42,099 nt of DNA from Bacteroidales bacterium (GTDB taxonomy: Bacteria; Bacteroidota; Bacteroidia; Bacteroidales; UBA932): positions 1 through 42,099 of the forward strand of contig JAFYTP010000014.1 in assembly GCA_017558775.1 (NCBI GenBank), written 5' to 3'. Shown piece by piece: positions 29,173 to 39,211 of this stretch. Below the pieces are notes generated by a model. It saw only the letters and a program-made list of their open reading frames with translations, was not told where the DNA came from and searched no databases. The position numbers and the translations under genes were made by a program. Positions within the stretch are counted from its first letter, which is position 1. Every line of letters starts with the position of its first letter.

Positions 29173-30945
29173 CTACTTTTCAGTAGCCCAACCGTTGAGC
29201 TGATGGAGTGCAGGATTGATCTGGCAGACATCGGCAGGGAACGGGAAATACTCGTGTTTGCCCTTGATGAACTGGTGAGGAATGCCTTCATAAGGCTTTC
29301 TCTCGACGTAGTACCATCTGTGCTCGGGCTCTTTATCCTTTGACATGGCGTCGAAGGCCTCAGGATATCTGTCGAGGTCCTTACCGCAAACCTGGTCGGC
29401 GATGCCCCAGCGGACAACATCGTGGAACCGGCAGCTTTCGAACCAGAGTTCGTACTGCTTCTCTTCCTGGACAATGGCGAGCGTAAGCTCGGTCTCAGGC
29501 ACTTCTGCACGGCGCTGAATCTGGTTGAGGGCTTCTTTACCCTTTGCGGCGTCGCTGCTTCCGATGCAGGCCTCGGCATAAAGCAGAAGGGCTTCGGCAT
29601 AGCGGGCGCACTTGGAATTGGACTGATTCGACGCACCGTTAGAAACCTCAGGGACGACATCGATGCCGTTGAGAGACATGAACTTCCAGTTCATATAGTA
29701 GGTACGGCCGAAGAAGCCGTTGGCATTCATGCCTCGCTTCGGATCTTTCTTCTTGTCTGCAAGCGTCCATTCGGAAGCCGGCTTCAGCTCGCCGGAAGTA
29801 TGGTTGTTGCCGACATAGTCGGTATCCCAGCGCATCCAAGGGAATTTATCAAAAATCTCATTGCCATCACTATCGATGCCGTAAAGCCATTCATCGGCCG
29901 TGAAGAAGGTGCCCATACGGCGGGGACCGTTACCATCATGCGCAAGGAACTTGTCTGCGAAATAACCGTTGATGGCTCCGCCGTTCCAGCCGGTCGTTGC
30001 CTGGCAAACCGGCCAGGAATTCATGTTCTTGCCACGCCAGTTAAGCGTGTTGTTCTGATTCCACTTGGCACGGGACTGGTTATCCCCGGACGAGTTATTC
30101 GAGTCATAGACCCAGTTCGGCTCGAAGATCTTTTCCTCGTTGCCATCTCCCGGGGTATGGAAATTCTCCCACCAGCGTTCGCCGGGGACAAGCGCATATT
30201 TGCCGGAGTTGATCAGGTCGCCGAGAAATCTGCGGGCTACATCCATTTCGTTGGCGAATACCGCGGATTTTCCCGCTACAAACTGAGCAAAGCCCTTGGT
30301 CGCAAAAGTGGTAGCGTCCTTGTCTGCCGTGCTGGCTCTTTCTTTCAGATTAGGAATAGCGGCTTCGCATTCAGCGATACACCAGTCAAGAAGGAACTTC
30401 TGAGACTCCACGTTCGTAGGATCCTCATCGGTCAGACAATGATCCACAAGCGGAGGGCACTGCCAGTTGAGAGCCGCAGTCATGTGACACCAGGCGCGGA
30501 TAACCCTCGCCTCGGCGACACAGCGGTCTACCACGGGGCTTGAATAGGCCCCTTCCTTGGTGAAGTTGTCGATAACGAGATTGCAGGCGTAGATTGTTTG
30601 ATACAAGCTTGTATACACCCTCTTGATGATTTCATAAGAGGCGTCATAGCGATACTCGTTGAAAAGACGCACATCAAGATGGTCGTCCTTGTTTTTTCCT
30701 GCAGCGAACACATCATCCGCCGAGTAGTTCAACATGAAGAAATACGGATTCCAGTTTCCGATGGAGCCGTAAACACTCTGAACCAGCTTGGCATAGACAT
30801 TCACCAGGGCGGCTTCTGCAGCTTCGTCGGAGGTGTAATAGGTTTCGTAGGCGACGACACCCTTCTGCGGGATATCCAACTGCTTTGTGCAGGCAGAGAA
30901 AAACAATGTGCAAACCGCCGTTAAGGCTACAATATATTTGTTCAT
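29173..30945 (-). CDS. Second SusD/RagB-family lipoprotein
   Basis: The protein has 590 residues from ATG 30945 (an ATG at 30951 is also possible; AGGAG lies at 30955-30959). It carries the signal MNKYIVALTAVCTLFFSAC with the lipobox Cys. SusD features are DEAAEAALVNVYAKLV, CVAEARVIRAWCHMTAALNW, ARYAEALLLYAEACIGSS, and EEKQYELWFESCRFHDVVRWG with a C-terminal FPFPADVCQINPALHQLNGW. It is a surface-exposed ligand-binding lid paired with the susC gene 19 nt upstream. No enzyme gene is attached to this pair in the window, so its ligand cannot be guessed from context. Confidence 0.97.
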   Translation of the reverse strand: MNKYIVALTAVCTLFFSACTKQLDIPQKGVVAYETYYTSDEAAEAALVNVYAKLVQSVYGSIGNWNPYFFMLNYSADDVFAAGKNKDDHLDVRLFNEYRYDASYEIIKRVYTSLYQTIYACNLVIDNFTKEGAYSSPVVDRCVAEARVIRAWCHMTAALNWQCPPLVDHCLTDEDPTNVESQKFLLDWCIAECEAAIPNLKERASTADKDATTFATKGFAQFVAGKSAVFANEMDVARRFLGDLINSGKYALVPGERWWENFHTPGDGNEEKIFEPNWVYDSNNSSGDNQSRAKWNQNNTLNWRGKNMNSWPVCQATTGWNGGAINGYFADKFLAHDGNGPRRMGTFFTADEWLYGIDSDGNEIFDKFPWMRWDTDYVGNNHTSGELKPASEWTLADKKKDPKRGMNANGFFGRTYYMNWKFMSLNGIDVVPEVSNGASNQSNSKCARYAEALLLYAEACIGSSDAAKGKEALNQIQRRAEVPETELTLAIVQEEKQYELWFESCRFHDVVRWGIADQVCGKDLDRYPEAFDAMSKDKEPEHRWYYVERKPYEGIPHQFIKGKHEYFPFPADVCQINPALHQLNGWATEK

Positions 30946-30964
30946 AATCATTATCTCCTATAAG

Positions 30965-33900
30965 TTAGAAAGAAACAGTTACACCGAACATACATTTACG
31001 CATGCTGGGATATGCACCGATGTCCACACCGCGGCCGGACGCCGAACCGGAAGTCGCCGTCTCGGGATCCATACCCGGATAGCTGGTGAAAGTGAAGAAG
31101 TCATCCAGGGAAACATACAGGCGAAGCTGATTGATGAGAACCTTCTTCGTCAGCTTCTGAGGAATGGTGTAACCGAGCTGGACCTGCCGGATCTTGAAGA
31201 AAGAGCCGTCGAACACGGAAGCGGTGGACCCCCAGAAATTCATGTCGCCGGACACCTTCGCGGGTTCAGGGAACAGGGCGTTCGGGTTTTTCTCGCTCCT
31301 TGAATTCAGATAGAAGTATCTGAGGCTGTTGTGATAACCGGGACGGTAGAGCGTATTCAGGATCTCGCAGCCACCCTGTCCGGAACCGAACACGATGAAG
31401 TCCAAGCCTTTCCACTCAAGATTGAGGGTAATGCCATAGGTATAATCCGGAAGACCCTTACCGATATTTGTCATATCGGCGTCGCTGATCTGCTCATCGC
31501 CGTTGACATCTCTGAGGTTGGGGGTTCCGTCCTCCTTGACGCCGTCATAAATATATCCGCGGATATACCAGATCGGCTGTCCGACTTCAAAGACCGTCTC
31601 GATCGGGTAGTTACTGCCCGAGGCCGGGCTCTGGGTGATTCTCGGAAGAGAGGGGAGGAGGTAGGTAACCCGGTTCTTCAAATAAGAGAAGTTTCCATTG
31701 ATGCCGTAACTGAAGTCACCGATGGTATCTTTCCAGCCGAGTTCGGCCTCAATACCGGTATTGAGCACGTTACCGGCATTGCTGGTAACCCTAGACACAC
31801 CGTACTCCGGCGGCGGAGAATAGGACACAAGCAGATCCCGGGTTTCTTTGCGGTACCAGTCCAAGGTGAAGGAAAGCCTGTTATTGAGGAAGCGTGCATC
31901 CAAACCCGCGTCAATCTGATTTGACTTCTCCCAGGTGAGGTTCGGGTTTGCCAGTCCGTCAGGGGCGGATCCGTAGACGTTTCCGGTCTGATCGACATGG
32001 TATTGGTACCACTGGCTGTTGAGGGAGATGGACGTGGAGTACGGATATCCGCTAAGCACGTTGACGTTACCATTGTAACCCCAAGAGGAACGCACTTTCA
32101 AGAATGAAATGGTGTTGGGGGAAACTGAATTCTTGAACCAAGGCTCATTGCTGATGGTCCAACCTGCAGATACTGAAGGGAAGTAACCCCAGCGGTTCTC
32201 GGGAGAGAGTTTCGAAGAGTCAAAGGCATCTGCGCGGAAGTTCGCCTGGATGCTGTAACGGTTGTCATAGCTATATCCCAGACGGGCGAAATAGGAAAGG
32301 CTGGCAGATTCAGAGGGAGAGTTGCTGAATTTCTTCGTCGCATCGTCCTTCACATAGTTCAGGTAACGGAAGTTAGGGTCGTATCCTTTCAGGATGTCTG
32401 AACCGGAAGCCGTACCGCTGACGTTATCCGAAGTGTTCTTGATGAAGGACATGCCGGCCATCACATTAATGTTGTGCTTGTTTGCAATGGTCGTGTTGTA
32501 GTTGGCAAAATTTTCCCACTGATAGTAGAGTCCGGTATTGGCCGTGGCATTGAGGGAGTATGTCTTGACGTCCGCCTTACCATTGGAGAAATAAGGAGCC
32601 GAATAACTGTGATTGTTGCTCTGGGTGATGCGGAAACCGAAGCGGCTGGTGAAGACCAGACCCTTGAACGGCTTGAGATTCGCAAACAGGACTCCATGGA
32701 CATTGATGCCTCCGCTGGAGCCATCGGTAGCGTCCCTCTGTACGAACGGGCTGCCGCCTCGGGTTTCGTCGATGGCAGAAGTGGCAAACCAGCCATTTTC
32801 GTCACCGAGGAAACTGTAGGGGTACTCGGAAGTGCCTTCCTGAACCGCGTCGTATTTATTTCTGTAATCCTGGTTGAACTGACTCGGGTCGGTCCAATAG
32901 ACAGGCGTGGTAGGGTCGATGGTCATGAGGGACTCGAAGGCGGAACCATAGCCCTGCTGGGAAACGGATTTGGTCGACCATTGTTCGATGGAGATGTTGT
33001 TGCCGACCTGAAGCCAATTGGTGAGATTGTAATCGGCGTTCAACTGGGCGGAAAGTCTCTTGTAAAGATCCTTGTCACCCTTGACGATACCATCCTGGTT
33101 GACATAGTTGATCGATGCGAAATAATGGCCATAATTGTTACCACCCTGGAAGGAGACGGTGTGCTGGATATTCCAGGAAGGGTTGAAGTATTCGCTGAAC
33201 CAATCCGTATCAGTACCATTGTAATGCGCATTCTCCAACTGCTCCTGAATGGCATAGCCTTGCAATCCCTTGTAGTCGATAAACTGCTCGGCGTTCAACA
33301 TTTCAGGCTTATGCGCAAGCGACTGATTGATGAATTTACCGGAATAAGTAATGGATGCATGTCCTTTTCCACCCTGCTTGGTGGTGACGAGAACCACACC
33401 ATTACCAGCCTCTGCACCATAAATTGCCGCGGAAGCCGCGTCCTTGAGGACTTCCATGGACTCGATCAAGGAAGGATCAAGATACTGGATGCTGTTGACC
33501 TTGAGGCCGTCGACAATGATGAGCGGTCCGATGTTGCCGCTGTTGGACGAGACACCACGGACGTTGATCGAAGCGCCGCTTCCGGGAGCGCCGGAGTTGG
33601 TGATGATCTGGACGCCGGCCACCTTTCCCTGGAGGGCGGCAGCCGCATCCGAAGTCGAACGGTTCTTGAGGTCATCCTGACGCACGGAAGCGACAGCGCC
33701 GGTGAGGTCGGACTTCTTCTGGACACCGTAACCGATGACCACCGTCTCGTCAAGGTACGTCACATCCTCCTCGAGCATGATGGTGACGACAGATTGATTG
33801 CCAACGGCGACCTGCTTGTCGGCAAAACCGAGGCAGCTTACGATAAGCGTCGCATTTGCGGGGACTGTCAGCTGGAACTGTCCATTAAAATCCGTGACGG

Positions 33901-34075
33901 TACCATTGCTGGTTTGACCAGCAACCATGACTGCCGCTCCGATAATGGGAGCACCAGTGCCGTCAACAACCTTTCCGCTCAAAGAGCGGTTCTGTGCAAA
34001 AGCATTGCCTGAACACAGAACGAGTGCTGCAGCCATCATAATGGAGGCAGCAACCTTTAAAAAGTGTTTTAACAT
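30965..34075 (-). CDS. Second SusC/RagA-family TonB-linked transporter
   Basis: This 1036-residue protein has a signal peptide ending SGNAFAQ and a carboxypeptidase-D-like domain (SLSGKVVDGTGAPIIGAAV). The TonB box region DETVVIGYGVQKK, the plug (INVRGVSS, LIIVDGLKV, IESMEVLKDAASAAIYGAEAGNG) and a barrel ending SF follow. It is clearly divergent from the transporter at 18325-21486 and is not a recent duplicate. It forms a bicistronic unit with the downstream susD and has a good promoter at 34119-34147. Coding GC looks somewhat lower than in the GH92 locus. Confidence 0.97.
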   Translation of the reverse strand: MLKHFLKVAASIMMAAALVLCSGNAFAQNRSLSGKVVDGTGAPIIGAAVMVAGQTSNGTVTDFNGQFQLTVPANATLIVSCLGFADKQVAVGNQSVVTIMLEEDVTYLDETVVIGYGVQKKSDLTGAVASVRQDDLKNRSTSDAAAALQGKVAGVQIITNSGAPGSGASINVRGVSSNSGNIGPLIIVDGLKVNSIQYLDPSLIESMEVLKDAASAAIYGAEAGNGVVLVTTKQGGKGHASITYSGKFINQSLAHKPEMLNAEQFIDYKGLQGYAIQEQLENAHYNGTDTDWFSEYFNPSWNIQHTVSFQGGNNYGHYFASINYVNQDGIVKGDKDLYKRLSAQLNADYNLTNWLQVGNNISIEQWSTKSVSQQGYGSAFESLMTIDPTTPVYWTDPSQFNQDYRNKYDAVQEGTSEYPYSFLGDENGWFATSAIDETRGGSPFVQRDATDGSSGGINVHGVLFANLKPFKGLVFTSRFGFRITQSNNHSYSAPYFSNGKADVKTYSLNATANTGLYYQWENFANYNTTIANKHNINVMAGMSFIKNTSDNVSGTASGSDILKGYDPNFRYLNYVKDDATKKFSNSPSESASLSYFARLGYSYDNRYSIQANFRADAFDSSKLSPENRWGYFPSVSAGWTISNEPWFKNSVSPNTISFLKVRSSWGYNGNVNVLSGYPYSTSISLNSQWYQYHVDQTGNVYGSAPDGLANPNLTWEKSNQIDAGLDARFLNNRLSFTLDWYRKETRDLLVSYSPPPEYGVSRVTSNAGNVLNTGIEAELGWKDTIGDFSYGINGNFSYLKNRVTYLLPSLPRITQSPASGSNYPIETVFEVGQPIWYIRGYIYDGVKEDGTPNLRDVNGDEQISDADMTNIGKGLPDYTYGITLNLEWKGLDFIVFGSGQGGCEILNTLYRPGYHNSLRYFYLNSRSEKNPNALFPEPAKVSGDMNFWGSTASVFDGSFFKIRQVQLGYTIPQKLTKKVLINQLRLYVSLDDFFTFTSYPGMDPETATSGSASGRGVDIGAYPSMRKCMFGVTVSF

Positions 34076-34147: not shown

Positions 34148-34253
34148 TTTTAAAAATATGTCATAAATTTTCAATCTTCGGTCTATTGGCCCCTTTACGG
34201 GGCGTGTGGTTTGGTTTCCATTCCATCACAGCAAGCATCTCAAATAAAATTTG

Positions 34254-34261
34254 TATCTTTG
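34254..34261 (+). promoter_or_regulatory. -7 box for the 93-residue protein gene (TATCTTTG)
   Basis: A perfect TAnnTTTG match lies 22 nt before the ATG at 34284. No well-spaced -33 element is visible. Confidence 0.6.
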
Positions 34262-34283
34262 CAGCGAATTAATTCAGAAAGCT

Positions 34284-34565
34284 ATGAATCTCAGAGAAAT
34301 CAAGAAAGACATCGAGTATGTGATCGGTGCGTTCGTGGACGACTGCGCCCTCTTCCTTTCCGTGCATCCGGGCAAGAACGCCGACGAAGTCGCGAACCTG
34401 ATCGACGGTGCCGTGGACCTGTTCAATGACCTCCGCAACCGGCTTGGCAAGCCGGAGGGCAACAAGCGCGCCTACTACGACGGTATCCGCAAGGAGCTCC
34501 TCGAGAAGACCGACGCCCTCTACGACAAGCTCAGCGAGGCGGTGAAGAAAGGCCTCGGCGACTAA
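34284..34565 (+). CDS. Small conserved cytosolic helical protein, unknown function
   Basis: This 93-residue protein starts MNLREIKKDIEYVIGAFVDDCALF. It is highly charged and appears entirely helical, with no signal peptide or membrane segment. The clean promoter, the normal codon use of the region and a dedicated terminator make it a real gene. It resembles small conserved proteins of unknown function seen in Bacteroidales, but I cannot assign a family. It is monocistronic between the second susCD operon and the polyphosphate-polymerase operon. An upstream in-frame start at 34251 would overlap the promoter and was rejected. Confidence 0.82.
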   Translation: MNLREIKKDIEYVIGAFVDDCALFLSVHPGKNADEVANLIDGAVDLFNDLRNRLGKPEGNKRAYYDGIRKELLEKTDALYDKLSEAVKKGLGD

Positions 34566-34582
34566 GCATACCTCCATAAGAA

Positions 34583-34614
34583 AAAGGTGTCCGGAGAACG
34601 CTCCGGGCACCTTT
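34583..34614. terminator. Terminator between the small gene and the DUF2490 gene
   Basis: AAAGGTGTCCGGAG (34583-34596) pairs with CTCCGGGCACCTTT (34601-34614), with one T-G wobble and an AACG tetraloop. It lies between convergent genes and could act on both strands. Confidence 0.88.
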
Positions 34615-34634: not shown

Positions 34635-35471
34635 TCAGAACGACCACTTGTAACCCACGCCGGCGGAAATCAGGTTGCCGGTGTACCAGTCGATGGATTT
34701 GAGGACGAGCCCGTTCTCTTTCCAGCTGGCGGACCCTTCCTTGTTCGTGTCGATCTCCTTGTCCTTGTAATGGTCCCCGAGGAGGTAAAAGTCGAGGGCG
34801 TGGCGCTTGTCAAACTTCACCGTCACGCCAATCTGGGCGCGGAGGCGGCTGACGTAAGAGTGATTGTAGCCCAGGAACTTTTCATTCTTGTAGAGGTCCT
34901 TATTGGGCGTATCCTCGGTAGCGTACGGATTGGCCTCGCCGTAGTATCTCGCGTCGTTCAGGGCTGTCTTGACCTCGAATCCGGCATAGGGGACAACACT
35001 CCCCAAGCCCAGGTACTTGACGGAAACCTTTGACTTGAGAGCCAGCGCATTGCGTGGTGCCTGGAGCGTATTCATCTCGCCTGGCCTGTGCGTGATCCGG
35101 AAGGTTTCCTTGAGCCCGAACTGCCAGTCCGTCGTCTTATAAGTTCCCGTGAGGAAGAAGTTGCCGCGATGGCGCTGTGTCCAATCCTTGGACTCCAGCT
35201 TGTACCGGTTGATCAGCTCGTATTCAGCACCGACCTTCAGGAAGGAGAGCACCTTGTATTCCACGCCGATTCCCGTGTAGGAACGCATGAGGTCGTTTCC
35301 GGAGCTGTACCAGCGGAACTCCTCATGGGCCATTACATGCAGTCCTTTCGCCACTTTGGCATCGGCCTCCACCGTCGCGCGGGCGCCGAAGGACGTCCCC
35401 TCGTTATAGGTCGTCTGCGCGAAGGCCGCGGCCGGAACCGCCAGCAGGAGTGTCAACAGCAGCTTCTTCAT
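34635..35471 (-). CDS. DUF2490-like outer-membrane beta-barrel protein
   Basis: The 278-residue protein has the signal MKKLLLTLLLAVPAAAFAQ. It then shows alternating hydrophobic/polar strands rich in Tyr, Trp and Phe, ending with the barrel-type C-terminus GVGYKWSF. The pattern (EEFRWYSSGNDLMRSYTGIG, VGAEYELINRY, QRHRGNFFLTG) resembles DUF2490 proteins, small outer-membrane barrels of unknown function. It is the last gene of the minus-strand operon, and its start overlaps the DUF4956 gene by 4 nt. In this setting it may be the outer-membrane component of whatever the polymerase and membrane protein do, which is inference. Confidence 0.8.
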   Translation of the reverse strand: MKKLLLTLLLAVPAAAFAQTTYNEGTSFGARATVEADAKVAKGLHVMAHEEFRWYSSGNDLMRSYTGIGVEYKVLSFLKVGAEYELINRYKLESKDWTQRHRGNFFLTGTYKTTDWQFGLKETFRITHRPGEMNTLQAPRNALALKSKVSVKYLGLGSVVPYAGFEVKTALNDARYYGEANPYATEDTPNKDLYKNEKFLGYNHSYVSRLRAQIGVTVKFDKRHALDFYLLGDHYKDKEIDTNKEGSASWKENGLVLKSIDWYTGNLISAGVGYKWSF

Positions 35472-36235
35472 TGCTCCACGTAATCTTTAGCGCGGGTGAT
35501 CTGGTCGATGGAACCGGTCTCGTCCTTCCCGAGGGTATAGAACACCTTGATGAAGGCGGCATCCTTCAGGAAGTCCACGTGCCCGATTTCCACGTTGTCG
35601 ACCTTGATGCCGAGGCGCTTCTCCAGGTCGGCGACGAGCTCGGCCCGGCGCTCCGGGACGATGAGCTCGATCCGGTCGTAGAGGACCAGCTTGGTGGAGG
35701 TCCGCTTCTGGAGCTTGTCGCTCTCCAGGAACCAGATCAGGCCGATGACGAGGAGGTTCGAGATGATGGTGACCAGCAGCGCGCCCATGTTCAGGGCGTA
35801 GTGCGGGGCGTCGGATGTCGCGCCGACGACCCGGTACAGCGGCGCCAGGCCGTTCATCGCCGCCAGGGCGATGATCACGAACAGGTAGGTCATCTCCCGG
35901 ATGGGCACGGTCTCGGTCCGGTACCGGATGACGCCGAAGATGGCGAACAGGCCCAGGGTGAGGCCCACGCCCACCTCCACATTGCCCATGATATACAGGA
36001 GCATCAGCATCGCCGTGGAGAACACCATGAAGGTGAAATAGTAGTCGCGGCGGCGGCTCTTCCGGTAATAGAAGAGGCCCACGATGACCCAGCACACGGC
36101 GAGGTTCAGGAAGAACCGGATCGCGAGTTCCGTGAGGCTCTGAGCGGTGGTCATCATCGCGTCGGTGATGGACTGGATGTCGAGGAAGTTCTCGTCGGCG
36201 AGATCGTACTCGCCGAGGTCTTGCATCGTAATCAT
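35468..36235 (-). CDS. DUF4956 multi-pass inner-membrane protein
   Basis: The 255-residue protein has about four to five hydrophobic segments between residues 38 and 172. One segment is highly conserved in the family (VGLTLGLFAIFGVIRYRTE, VPIREMTYLF). A soluble C-terminal domain of about 80 residues (LVLYDRIELIVPERRAELVADLEKRLG) probably lies in the cytosol. DUF4956 proteins are commonly encoded beside VTC-domain polyphosphate polymerases and CotH-type proteins; their activity is not established as far as I know. Its ends overlap both neighbours by 4 nt, so the three proteins are likely made in fixed ratio. A transport or anchoring role for the polymer is a reasonable hypothesis. Confidence 0.88.
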   Translation of the reverse strand: MITMQDLGEYDLADENFLDIQSITDAMMTTAQSLTELAIRFFLNLAVCWVIVGLFYYRKSRRRDYYFTFMVFSTAMLMLLYIMGNVEVGVGLTLGLFAIFGVIRYRTETVPIREMTYLFVIIALAAMNGLAPLYRVVGATSDAPHYALNMGALLVTIISNLLVIGLIWFLESDKLQKRTSTKLVLYDRIELIVPERRAELVADLEKRLGIKVDNVEIGHVDFLKDAAFIKVFYTLGKDETGSIDQITRAKDYVEQ

Positions 36236-37029
36236 GCTACGGTGATTTTACGGTTGATGGTCTTTTCGATGAGCCGCACCTTCTCCTTGAACCGGTTGGA
36301 ACGGGCCGACGGGTCCGTGAGGGTGACGGCGATGCAGTATTTGCTGATCCGGGCGACTTTCACCCGGTGGTCCAGGAGGATACCCTTCATCGCGCTGGCG
36401 GAGCGTCCGTCCTGTTTGAGTTCGATGACGACGGCGTCCCCGAGATCCGTCTCAAGTCCGGTGCGGAAGTTCTTGAACCGGAGGTCCGTGTCGATGGTGA
36501 TCCGCTCCGTCATCGCGGGGTTCACGAGCGTGATCCGCCGGAAGGCGGTCTCCAGGGTGGGGAGGAGTTCCTCCGCGCGGAAGTCGGACCAGTCGGCAAG
36601 ATACCGGCACGCGGCGGCATCGGCCCGGAAATCAGGCAGTTCCGCCATCGGGATGGCGGTGCGCTTCTTCTTGGTCCGCCCGCGGTTATTCTTCCGCTTG
36701 ATCTCCAGGAAGGCGTCGCCGGAATTGACATAGGCGCGGGTGCGCACCTTCTGCCGGCGGAGCCGCTGGTTGTGATGGTCGGAGAACATCCGGAGGCCCG
36801 GGGTGTCGAAATAGACGGAGTCGTAGGGGCTGATCCGGGACCCGCCGGCGACGAGGACGCGGTAGCCGGCGGCGGCCGCGTCGCGGAGCACGCCCGCGAG
36901 CGTCGCCTCATCCGAGAGATACTTCGTGTCCACCCGGTTCATCAGACGCACCGCGTCCATCTCCGCCAGGGAAACGGGCGCGAAGCCGTCCAAGGTTGCG
37001 GCAGGGAATATGCGCGCAGGGTCAGGCAT
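36232..37029 (-). CDS. VTC-domain polyphosphate polymerase
   Basis: The 265-residue protein matches the catalytic tunnel domain of yeast Vtc4. It shows NRVDTKY near residues 31-37 (Arg32, Asp34, Lys36), YFDTP, the basic strand RRQKVRTRAY, LEIKRK (Glu109, Lys111), TERITIDTDLRF, VVIELK (Glu203, Lys205) and SKYCIAVTL. In the family these charged residues line a tunnel that turns ATP gamma-phosphates into polyphosphate. There is no membrane segment, so it is cytosolic and probably bound to the DUF4956 protein encoded next. The start overlaps the upstream small gene by 8 nt. Whether the product is inorganic polyphosphate is inferred from the family only. Confidence 0.88.
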   Translation of the reverse strand: MPDPARIFPAATLDGFAPVSLAEMDAVRLMNRVDTKYLSDEATLAGVLRDAAAAGYRVLVAGGSRISPYDSVYFDTPGLRMFSDHHNQRLRRQKVRTRAYVNSGDAFLEIKRKNNRGRTKKKRTAIPMAELPDFRADAAACRYLADWSDFRAEELLPTLETAFRRITLVNPAMTERITIDTDLRFKNFRTGLETDLGDAVVIELKQDGRSASAMKGILLDHRVKVARISKYCIAVTLTDPSARSNRFKEKVRLIEKTINRKITVA

Positions 37030-37441
37030 CCTCGGCGATGTATTCGAACACCTTGATGGTCAGGAGCTTTCCCTTCGCGTTGTAGTTATACTGGGTTTTC
37101 TTGCGGCCGAACTCGTTGTATTCGTACTTCTTGACGGATTCCAGCCGGTTCCGCTCGTTGTACACCGACTCCTTGATGCATTTACCCTCGGCGCCGGGGG
37201 CATACTCGAAGCGCTTGCGCCACTTCTGACCTTCGGAATTGTATTCGATCTCCTCGATCTTCTTGCCGTCGGCATCGTAGGTGGTGACATGGTCCAGCAC
37301 CTTCTTCCCGCTCCGGGGATCGGTGTTCCATTCCTTGATGACCAGATTCTTCTTGTTGATCTTCTGGCCAGTGGTATTCTGGGCCGCGGCCGGCGCGACG
37401 AGCGCGAAGGCTAGGGCGATGATGGCGAGTAACTTTCTCAT
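37022..37441 (-). CDS. Small secreted YD-repeat-like protein
   Basis: The 139-residue protein starts MRKLLAIIALAFALVAPAAAQ, a clear signal peptide. The mature part consists of short beta repeats of the type TTYDADGKKIEEIEYNSEGQKWRK and KYEYNEFGRKKTQYNYNAKGKL. These recall antitoxin- or Rhs-like YD/toxin_YwqK repeats, which fold as extended beta sheets and have no enzymatic motif. It is probably periplasmic or surface-exposed. It is the first gene of the polymerase operon and overlaps the VTC gene by 8 nt. I chose ATG 37441, since a frame start at 37462 lies upstream of the -7 box. Confidence 0.8.
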   Translation of the reverse strand: MRKLLAIIALAFALVAPAAAQNTTGQKINKKNLVIKEWNTDPRSGKKVLDHVTTYDADGKKIEEIEYNSEGQKWRKRFEYAPGAEGKCIKESVYNERNRLESVKKYEYNEFGRKKTQYNYNAKGKLLTIKVFEYIAEDA

Positions 37442-37448
37442 AATTTTG

Positions 37449-37456
37449 CAAATATA
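37449..37456 (-). promoter_or_regulatory. -7 box of the polyphosphate-polymerase operon (TATATTTG)
   Basis: The minus strand TATATTTG is a perfect TAnnTTTG match. It ends 7 nt before the ATG at 37441, in the 27-nt gap after the beta-helix lipoprotein gene. The mRNA would be leaderless or nearly so. Confidence 0.55.
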
Positions 37457-37468
37457 CAACAATTCTCA

Positions 37469-39211
37469 TTACCGGCCGCCCGGACCGCCGCCGGGACCCA
37501 TGCCGCCACCGCCTCCGCTATAGGAGGAAATCGTGCAGGCCGTGCCATCAGTGACGGTTGCCTCAGTCCGGTACAGACCGCCGAAGTACTCCGTTCCGCC
37601 GCTCACTTTGACACCATATTTGATGGTTTTCAGGGAAGGGTTGGATACAACCAGCGTCAGGCTGCTGACGTTCGGGGTCTTGAAAGCGCAGAGGACATTG
37701 CCCTTTTCGTCGAACATGGCATAGTCGGTATTGGCCTTGACCGTCCCGGCCGACCAGCATTGCTGGCTGAGGGACGCGCCGCTCTCCAGCCCGCCGACGG
37801 CGATGACGGTGCCGCCGGTGAGATAGAGCTTCTTATGCTCCTCCGAGTTCGCGTCGATGGCGATTTCCGGTGAGCGGGAGCCGATGGCGTACACGACGCC
37901 GCCCTTGATGTAGAGGTCGCCGTTGGCGTCCAGGCCGTCGTTGCCGCTGGAGTAGGCAAAGACCGCCCCGCCTTCGACGGACAGGTCACTGTCGGCGTTG
38001 ATGGCGTCGTCGCTGGAATAGGCATACACCTCGCCGCCGGAGATGACCAGCACGCCCTTGGCCTCCAGGGCTTCATGGCTGGCGCTTTTCGCGGTGAGCT
38101 TGCCACCGGAGATATACATGTTGCCATCGAACTTGACGGCCTTGGAGGCGACGGAATTGTCTTCTGTCGATGAACCCTGCCCGTGCCCGCCGGGACGCCC
38201 GCTGGGGCCGAAACCGCCGCCGGAACTGGTTCCGTAGTTGGCGCCGGTGACATTGACAGTCACGGTTCCGCCCTTGAAGTACGCGACGTTGTCGCCGCTG
38301 ATGCCCTTGGCGCCCGTACCGGAGCTGGTGATGTTCAGGATACCGTCGACCATCTCGAAGCGGAGGTCCGCCTTGATGCCGGCGACGCCGGTCAGCTCGC
38401 CGTCCACTTCACCCGCGGAACCCGTGGTCACAATGTTCGTCACTCCGCCGGCGAAATACACCAGCGTGTCGGAGGAAAAACCCTTCTTGCCCGTCCCGGA
38501 CACGTTCACGTCGATGGTTCCGTCACTGACGATGATGGATTCCTTGCCCCGGACGCCGTGGCCGGCGCTGGAAGTGACCTTCACGGTAGGGGAGGCCATG
38601 AAACGGACGTAATCGTCGGAGGTGATGCCTGCCTTGCCGGTGGCATTGACCGTCAAGGTGCCGTCGCCGCTGAAGACGAGCTGGCCTTCGGAGAAGAAGG
38701 CGGCCTTTTCGTCCTCGTCGTCCGGCGTTTGCGAATAAGACACGCCGTCGGCGAGGGTGTTTGTGCCCTTCACGACCACGAAAGTGCGCTTGTGGCTCTG
38801 GTTGTTGATGGCCGCGCCCTTCGTGTTCGTCAGATTCAGCCCGTTGAGGAGGATCTGCTGCTTCCGGGTGCTGTACAGTTTGAAATAGCCGTCGGAGGAG
38901 GAGCCGGAAAGGTCGTAGATGACGGCCTCCTGGCCATTGTTGGTGATAGTGACGCCGGCGCCGGATATACTTATGGTAAAATCCTCGGTAGTTCCGGTGA
39001 CTTTGGCGCTAGTTCCGGAAAAGACCACTTTCACGGTGCGGTCAAACGTGGAGTTCGCCACGTTGTCGTCTTCTTTGTCTGTTTGGATGTTGCTTCCGGC
39101 CGTATCGTCTCCGGCGACGACGGTCTCGGTCTTGTCTTCCGGGCTGATGATGTCATCTTTGCCGCAGGCCAGCAGAAGCAGGCAGGCCACGGCTAATGCT
39201 ATGTTCCTCAT
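37469..39211 (-). CDS. Cthe_2159-like beta-helix (carbohydrate-binding, DUF4353-type) lipoprotein
   Basis: The protein has 580 residues from ATG 39211, with MRNIALAVACLLLLACG (lipobox Cys16) and an acidic linker. The body is built from right-handed beta-helix-like turns with recurring motifs such as AAFFSEGQLVFSGDGTLTV, KAGITSDDYVRF, KGISGDNVAYFKGGTVTV, HEALEAKGVLVISGGEVYAY and DDAINADSDLSVEGG. These match the Cthe_2159 family, reported as calcium- and acidic-polysaccharide-binding. A Gly/Ser-rich insert interrupts the helix (GGGFGPSGRPGGHGQG), and the C-terminus is GGGGGMGPGGGPGGR. In other bacteria this family occurs beside CotH, VTC and DUF4956 genes, as it does here. The frame stays open upstream to 41245, antisense to galE and the PBP gene; that part is not coding. 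Confidence 0.87.
   Translation of the reverse strand: MRNIALAVACLLLLACGKDDIISPEDKTETVVAGDDTAGSNIQTDKEDDNVANSTFDRTVKVVFSGTSAKVTGTTEDFTISISGAGVTITNNGQEAVIYDLSGSSSDGYFKLYSTRKQQILLNGLNLTNTKGAAINNQSHKRTFVVVKGTNTLADGVSYSQTPDDEDEKAAFFSEGQLVFSGDGTLTVNATGKAGITSDDYVRFMASPTVKVTSSAGHGVRGKESIIVSDGTIDVNVSGTGKKGFSSDTLVYFAGGVTNIVTTGSAGEVDGELTGVAGIKADLRFEMVDGILNITSSGTGAKGISGDNVAYFKGGTVTVNVTGANYGTSSGGGFGPSGRPGGHGQGSSTEDNSVASKAVKFDGNMYISGGKLTAKSASHEALEAKGVLVISGGEVYAYSSDDAINADSDLSVEGGAVFAYSSGNDGLDANGDLYIKGGVVYAIGSRSPEIAIDANSEEHKKLYLTGGTVIAVGGLESGASLSQQCWSAGTVKANTDYAMFDEKGNVLCAFKTPNVSSLTLVVSNPSLKTIKYGVKVSGGTEYFGGLYRTEATVTDGTACTISSYSGGGGGMGPGGGPGGR

Follow-up and report, generated by a model that had tools for sequence, protein, structure and literature searches.

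In the VTC complex of yeast, polyphosphate synthesis is coupled to translocation, the channel walls being basic (PMC9911596). In streptococci, clostridia and bifidobacteria, CotH, VTC and DUF4956 genes are described as accessory genes beside pelDEADAFG (PMC7112168), and VTC and CotH have also been described at a locus of C. perfringens. Streptococcus intermedius without the VTC gene still aggregates and retains Pel; deletion of SIR_1592 raised Pel and deletion of SIR_1594 lowered it, with aggregation changed too (PMC12345266). SIR_1592 would be a DUF4956 protein. In B. thetaiotaomicron, BT3498-BT3499 are tabulated as DUF4956 and DUF2490 (fold change not significant, 0.175; PMC10434189), and DUF2490 is described as a putative porin of unknown function, TCDB 1.B.81 (PMC4827864). 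The VTC-DUF4956-CotH core is already in print, and the papers searched gave no description of outer-envelope modules from Bacteroidota. Our literature search, which had most subscription journals outside its reach, returned no paper on DUF2490 with VTC as one system. Here we analyze a stretch of 42,099 nucleotides (nt) from a Bacteroidales bacterium (contig JAFYTP010000014.1), hereafter the window, in which Cthe_2159, YD-like, VTC, DUF4956 and DUF2490 genes follow one another on the minus strand. To our knowledge, how bacteria might place polyphosphate outside the cell is an open question. Judged from sequence, this operon may encode a machine that synthesizes polyphosphate, or an anionic polymer closely related to it, and exports it across the envelope, a reading that we hold at slightly less than an even call.

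The genes, with their lengths in amino acids (aa), and the structure that follows them are:

37469..39211, minus strand: beta-helix protein of the Cthe_2159 family, 580 aa, the gene that opens the set (PF14262 match)
37022..37441, counted from ATG, minus strand: YD-like small secreted protein, 139 aa (TIGR01643 match)
36232..37029, minus strand: VTC-domain protein of 265 aa, predicted to be a polyphosphate polymerase of the cytosol (PF09359 match)
35468..36235, minus strand: DUF4956 membrane protein, 255 aa (PF16316 match)
34635..35471, minus strand: DUF2490 outer-membrane beta-barrel, 278 aa (PF10677 match and barrel model)
34591..34606, minus strand: terminator-like stem-loop and T-run, 29 nt past the DUF2490 stop

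The genes are tightly packed, as an earlier note on this DNA had described: DUF2490 and DUF4956 overlap by 4 nt, DUF4956 and VTC by 4 nt, and VTC and the YD-like gene by 8 nt, while 27 nt separate the Cthe_2159 and YD-like genes. TTG at 37462 is an alternative start of the YD-like gene. The stem-loop is only suggestive of a possible operon end; the region holds 3 terminator-like sites compared with 5.2 in its shuffles, and is thus poorer than these. The family names given in the earlier note stand for four of the five proteins, which exceed the Pfam curated cut-offs: Cthe_2159 (PF14262, E 2.5e-45, 155.2 bits against a cut-off of 25.8), VTC (PF09359, E 1.1e-30, 107.4 against 23), DUF4956 (PF16316, E 2.4e-47, 161.3 against 30.6) and DUF2490 (PF10677, TCDB 1.B.81, E 6.3e-11, 42.8 against 29.8). 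The YD-like name, in contrast, comes from one weak NCBIfam match (TIGR01643, 19.4 bits against a cut-off of 15.8, E 0.0011) in which no single stretch passes, and the Pfam RHS_repeat match (E 0.024) lies below its cut-off.

The five-gene neighbourhood is conserved beyond chance. VTC was found in 144 of 295 genomes of the order, and 141 loci were surveyed with profiles grown from the window's proteins. These loci comprise the window and 140 fetched loci (up to ~8 kb on each side), out of at least ~149 VTC places besides the window; the lowest-scoring ones are among the 9 left out and those beyond the matches listed. DUF4956 is present at 137/141 VTC loci, YD at 47 by its family profile and Cthe_2159 at 17. 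DUF2490 lies within 2.5 kb of VTC in 64 loci, against ~0.1 expected from a genome density that rests on ~150 DUF2490 places counted by eye. These 64 loci span 40 family codes, and in nearly all of them DUF2490 is downstream of DUF4956. The order YD-VTC-DUF4956-DUF2490 is complete in 37 of the 141. For the conservation of DUF2490, YD and Cthe_2159, aligned pieces rather than proteins were counted (92, 62 and 38, respectively). Other recurrent neighbours are a small secreted TTR/CarboxypepD-like protein directly 5' of YD or VTC (40 loci), and, following DUF2490, a histidine kinase together with a LytTR regulator.

Related bacteria of gut and rumen carry the set as well. Among 80 named close relatives, several of whose misses are contig ends, 77 carry DUF4956, 65 DUF2490 and 72 YD (70 directly upstream), Cthe_2159 stands upstream of YD in 49, and 40 show the full five-gene order. 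VTC and DUF4956 overlap by exactly 4 nt in 51/77, YD and VTC by exactly 8 nt in 27/72, and DUF4956 and DUF2490 by 4 nt in 19/64; the start codon nearest the preceding stop was chosen for these counts, which biases them toward short gaps.

By class, 73 of the 141 loci carry DUF2490, YD or TTR, 21 an HlyD-like gene, 25 the reversed order DUF4956-VTC, and 22 none of these, and the first three classes do not overlap. In the HlyD-like class, an HlyD/CusB-like membrane-fusion gene lies directly upstream of VTC. A TolC-like gene accompanies three HlyD-like loci of the order; loci with a TolC-like outer membrane efflux protein (OEP) beside the HlyD-like gene are L049, L052, L059 and L286. The recurrent clusters next to the HlyD-like gene yielded no exporter ATPase family, and the HlyD-like profile has no match near the window's VTC. 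The same exclusion holds in 29 further loci of the phylum, read ~1.5 kb on each side (29 of 33 listed places, leaving aside a fragment, two second copies and the window itself): 15 are HlyD-like, 8 carry DUF2490 (3 of them upstream of VTC), 6 have neither gene, and no locus has both. On the VTC tree the HlyD-like class forms one side of a branch (Shimodaira-Hasegawa-like approximate likelihood ratio test 93) and needs one change, whereas the DUF2490/YD/TTR class needs 12; the other classes are clustered. The HlyD-like and reversed classes span 14 and 18 family codes, respectively. A paired test for independent DUF2490 gains on this tree had five supported pairs only. This swap of two outer-envelope parts around one core is, in our view, the best evidence for an envelope-spanning function.

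The window's VTC chain (265 aa) contains no SPX domain, no membrane domain and no hydrophobic segment, and Pfam shows the VTC domain only. A direct phmmer search of the PDB gave no match, but a profile of 14 relatives did reach Vtc4, and was used to align VTC to the structure 3g3q (full-sequence E 0.0024; the later pieces are weak taken singly). In this alignment, Vtc4 K200/R264/R266/K281/R361/R373/E426/K428/K458 correspond to K36/R96/R98/K111/R165/R176/E203/K205/K230 of the window's protein. We take K200, K281, R361, R373, K428 and K458 to be further tunnel or metal residues of Vtc4, next to R264, R266 and E426. The latter three were substituted to inactivate yeast Vtc4 in a cryo-electron microscopy study (PMC9911596). 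All nine equivalents are 99-100% conserved across the 141 loci, so the loss of tunnel residues that the earlier note had named as evidence against its own reading was not seen. Because these residues are conserved, VTC would be the chain-maker, working from ATP in the cytosol.

The DUF4956 model has five helices (30-60, 63-86, 90-107, 112-130 and 150-171) followed by a C-terminal beta-alpha-beta-beta domain, with a predicted local distance difference test score (pLDDT) of 75.8 and a predicted template modelling score of 0.60. Positive loops at 56-65, 104-114 and 172-182, together with signal-peptide-like starts in some relatives, suggest an N-terminus outside and a cytosolic C-terminal domain. 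R104 and R106 (98% and 100% conserved in 138 sequences) fall where helix 3 is predicted to meet the cytosol. Fold and sequence searches of the PDB gave no convincing structural relative, and Vtc1 and MgtC were absent from the matches listed. Its near-universal pairing with VTC and these two conserved arginines, which would lie at a cytosolic mouth, make DUF4956 a candidate inner-membrane conduit.

A possible sequence of events can be drawn from this. The chain made by VTC would be handed to DUF4956, whose gene overlaps that of VTC by 4 nt, and would cross the inner membrane much as it does in the transmembrane channel of yeast VTC. In diderms, VTC-DUF4956 would then join one of two outer modules, either the DUF2490 barrel, as in the window, or an HlyD/CusB-like adaptor, to which a TolC-like channel is added in some loci. 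Partners that are secreted, here YD and Cthe_2159 and elsewhere CotH kinases and TTR-fold proteins, might bind or use the product outside.

The earlier note had taken DUF2490 for a barrel, and the model bears this out with confidence (pLDDT 90.4). Its N-terminus is signal-peptide-like, and DSSP assigns 11 strands, while the best-matching barrels are 12-stranded. The best PDB matches include NanC and KdgM, tied with autotransporter barrels; the Pfam scan gave no match to the KdgM/NanC porin family. Conserved lysines and arginines line the inner face of the barrel. This interior charge was considered as proof of an anion route and dropped, as unlinked copies of DUF2490 (n = 12) are at least as positive.

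Several results weigh against an envelope-spanning exporter. The association of DUF2490 and YD with VTC-DUF4956 that the earlier note expected is fixed in order and far above chance for DUF2490, but it is not general: 77/141 loci are without DUF2490 and 94/141 without YD, which, taken literally, is half of what that note had named as counting against its own reading. Many of these loci bear another arrangement, namely the 21 HlyD-like and 25 reversed ones, and three genomes with a DUF2490-less VTC locus have DUF2490 beside CotH elsewhere. In G065 the VTC locus has DUF4956 only, and CotH-TTR-YD-DUF2490 form a separate cluster (L159, L258); the VTC loci of G080 and G024 carry YD as well as DUF4956. 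Moreover, DUF2490 is not reserved for the VTC system, since copies also stand beside a sodium:solute symporter and a sulfate permease. Twenty DUF2490 loci were picked as away from VTC, and 17 gave a called DUF2490 gene; of the twenty, L266 carries VTC and DUF4956, and L261 and L265 have DUF4956 at a contig end. Two of the seven scanned non-VTC loci adjoin small-solute transporters, and DUF2490 may therefore be a general anion porin. One of these two, L252, is the second DUF2490 copy of the window's own genome, beside the symporter; in the other (L253:5018-7584) the DUF2490 gene overlaps the sulfate permease gene.

The same results favor a division of labor in which VTC-DUF4956 handles polyphosphate at the inner membrane, and YD, DUF2490 and Cthe_2159 are an independent, co-expressed surface or uptake module, e.g., an anion porin. 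DUF2490 and YD do occur away from VTC, and the separate clusters of G065 and the transporter neighbors of L252 and L253 are in line with such a module. However, a joint function is suggested by the constant gene order with its 4-nt overlaps across 40 family codes and by the mutual exclusion with the HlyD-like module, and we regard this division as very unlikely.

As for the secreted partners of the proposed exporter, the YD-like protein has, by eye, a signal-peptide-like N-terminus, MRKLLAIIALAFALVAPAAAQ, and Cthe_2159 starts with a lipobox-like LLAC followed by GKDD. A lipobox pattern was found in 18/75 Cthe_2159 proteins, the window's own being missed since its open frame extends far upstream. 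Acidic residues, looked for as a surface-export signal, occur in 11 of these 18 versus 44/113 other open reading frames (ORFs), no clear excess. The window's genome has one Cthe_2159 gene. Across the 141 loci, CotH (39 loci) and Cthe_2159 (17 loci) never share a locus. In the window, Cthe_2159 therefore occupies the place held elsewhere by CotH and TTR.

CotH is linked to VTC both locally and at genome level. It lies within 5 kb of VTC in 39/141 loci, and is present in 123/144 VTC genomes versus 62/151 others (odds ratio 8.4); DUF2490 is present in 84/144 versus 36/151, and the Fisher tests behind both comparisons ignore kinship. By eye, 42 of 43 CotH proteins near VTC start with a hydrophobic or lipobox-like segment, and one scanned member (L090) has a type-IX sorting tail at its end. 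Four CotH genes are present in the window's genome, all away from the operon and none within 5 kb of its VTC. Secreted, Pfam-less proteins are encoded directly after DUF4956 at four loci (L121:6215-7291, L127:6197-7270, L119:9371-10429 and L149:6158-7231), and hhalign finds a 55-column stretch in them similar to the catalytic region of CotH (E 0.0014, at a probability of 17%). At L074:4276-7299 and similar places, the DUF4956-VTC pair of the reversed class comes after lipoprotein-like proteins of ~1000 aa that combine a beta-helix with a weak CotH domain (1.4e-7).

These data lend themselves to the idea that export of polyphosphate, or of another chain, serves mainly to supply a substrate to secreted CotH-type kinases, which would phosphorylate surface proteins or glycans. 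The genome-level excess, the four CotH genes of the window's genome, the secretion signals and the CotH-like motif of the four post-DUF4956 proteins, despite its low hhalign probability, all fit. On the other hand, CotH is near VTC at only 39/141 loci and absent from the window's operon, it is present in 62/151 VTC-less genomes, and the genome-level test does not account for kinship. We know of no kinase that uses polyphosphate outside the cell, which counts against the idea as well. CotH from B. subtilis is reported to be a Ser/Thr kinase that acts on coat proteins (PMC7821199). Taken together, we consider a mainly kinase-directed export quite unlikely. A wider version, in which interchangeable conduits (DUF2490, HlyD-like with or without TolC, perhaps porin O/P) would bring polyphosphate to the surface as a phosphoryl donor for secreted CotH-type kinases, with no ATP needed outside, is a long shot.

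The co-occurrence of CotH with VTC would also suit a role without polyphosphate export, in which the phosphate chemistry of VTC and DUF4956 tunes an exopolysaccharide or a surface protein layer. This agrees with the position of the same core beside pelDEADAFG (PMC7112168), and with the S. intermedius deletions, where loss of SIR_1592 or SIR_1594 shifts Pel and loss of VTC leaves it present (PMC12345266), as far as the accessible sections of both papers go. Yet the window's operon is without a glycosyltransferase, and no polysaccharide synthase is among the annotated recurrent neighbor clusters of the 141 loci, in which pel genes were not searched by name. Such a tuning role is rather unlikely in our judgment.

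VTC as a replacement for PPK1 was considered and rejected: PPK1 is found in 90/144 VTC genomes and 101/151 others, so the two are independent across the order (p 0.47), which fits a separate job for VTC. The window's genome (88% complete) gave no PPK1 match.

The contexts outside the phylum, few as they are, speak for phosphate chemistry. On plasmids of Shinella and Aminobacter, DUF4956-VTC is followed by a phytase-like esterase gene (two regions; L307:7347-8285 and L309:7345-8280). Deinococcus taeanensis has CotH-VTC-DUF4956, and in Deinococcus QL22 an acid phosphatase-like gene and an ABC operon for phosphonate/phosphate lie near VTC-DUF4956. In Pseudoalteromonas, just 1 nt separates DUF4956 from the phosphate-selective porin O/P gene that follows it (PF07396, 2.4e-47), with no VTC on that plasmid record; a lamin-tail protein, DUF4956 and the porin stand in a row there (L306:5273-7651). 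Near other VTC loci, porin O/P gave one match, at L040, ~5 kb from VTC and on the opposite strand.

Past the operon, on the minus strand of the window, lie genes for a SusD/RagB-like protein (29173-30951) and a SusC-like TonB receptor (30965-34075). Between these and the operon sits a 104-aa ORF (34251-34565, plus strand), convergent with DUF2490, for which no Pfam or NCBIfam family matched. A tRNA scan of the window found none.

A conserved operon in which a polymerase of the Vtc4 type is joined by a partner in the membrane and a route through the outer membrane would make extracellular polyphosphate testable by gene deletion, and a model genus is within reach, as BT3498-BT3499 of B. thetaiotaomicron hold two of the families according to the available tabulation. 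If the CotH link is true, it would also propose a phosphate source for secreted kinases.

Compared with known systems, the operon resembles the yeast VTC complex (Vtc1/Vtc3/Vtc4) in its VTC/TTM catalytic domain with conserved tunnel residues and in the placement of a membrane partner with the polymerase, the coupling of synthesis to translocation being the proposed common principle. It differs in that the VTC chain is without an SPX domain or membrane helices, the membrane part is DUF4956, with Vtc1 not recovered by sequence or fold, and there are two membranes to cross. With the Gram-positive pel accessory sets it shares adjacent VTC and DUF4956 genes, and CotH is frequent in the wider Bacteroidales set; however, the window's operon has neither CotH nor a polysaccharide synthase gene, and DUF2490, YD and Cthe_2159 are not members of the pel sets as described in the accessible sections (PMC7112168; PMC12345266). 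BT3498-BT3499 present the same two families, DUF4956 and DUF2490, as neighbors. Finally, the HlyD/CusB-like module, sometimes with an OEP, that stands beside VTC-DUF4956 in other Bacteroidota recalls the tripartite HlyD-TolC exporters, whereas the window's operon is without this membrane-fusion module and has DUF2490 in its set.

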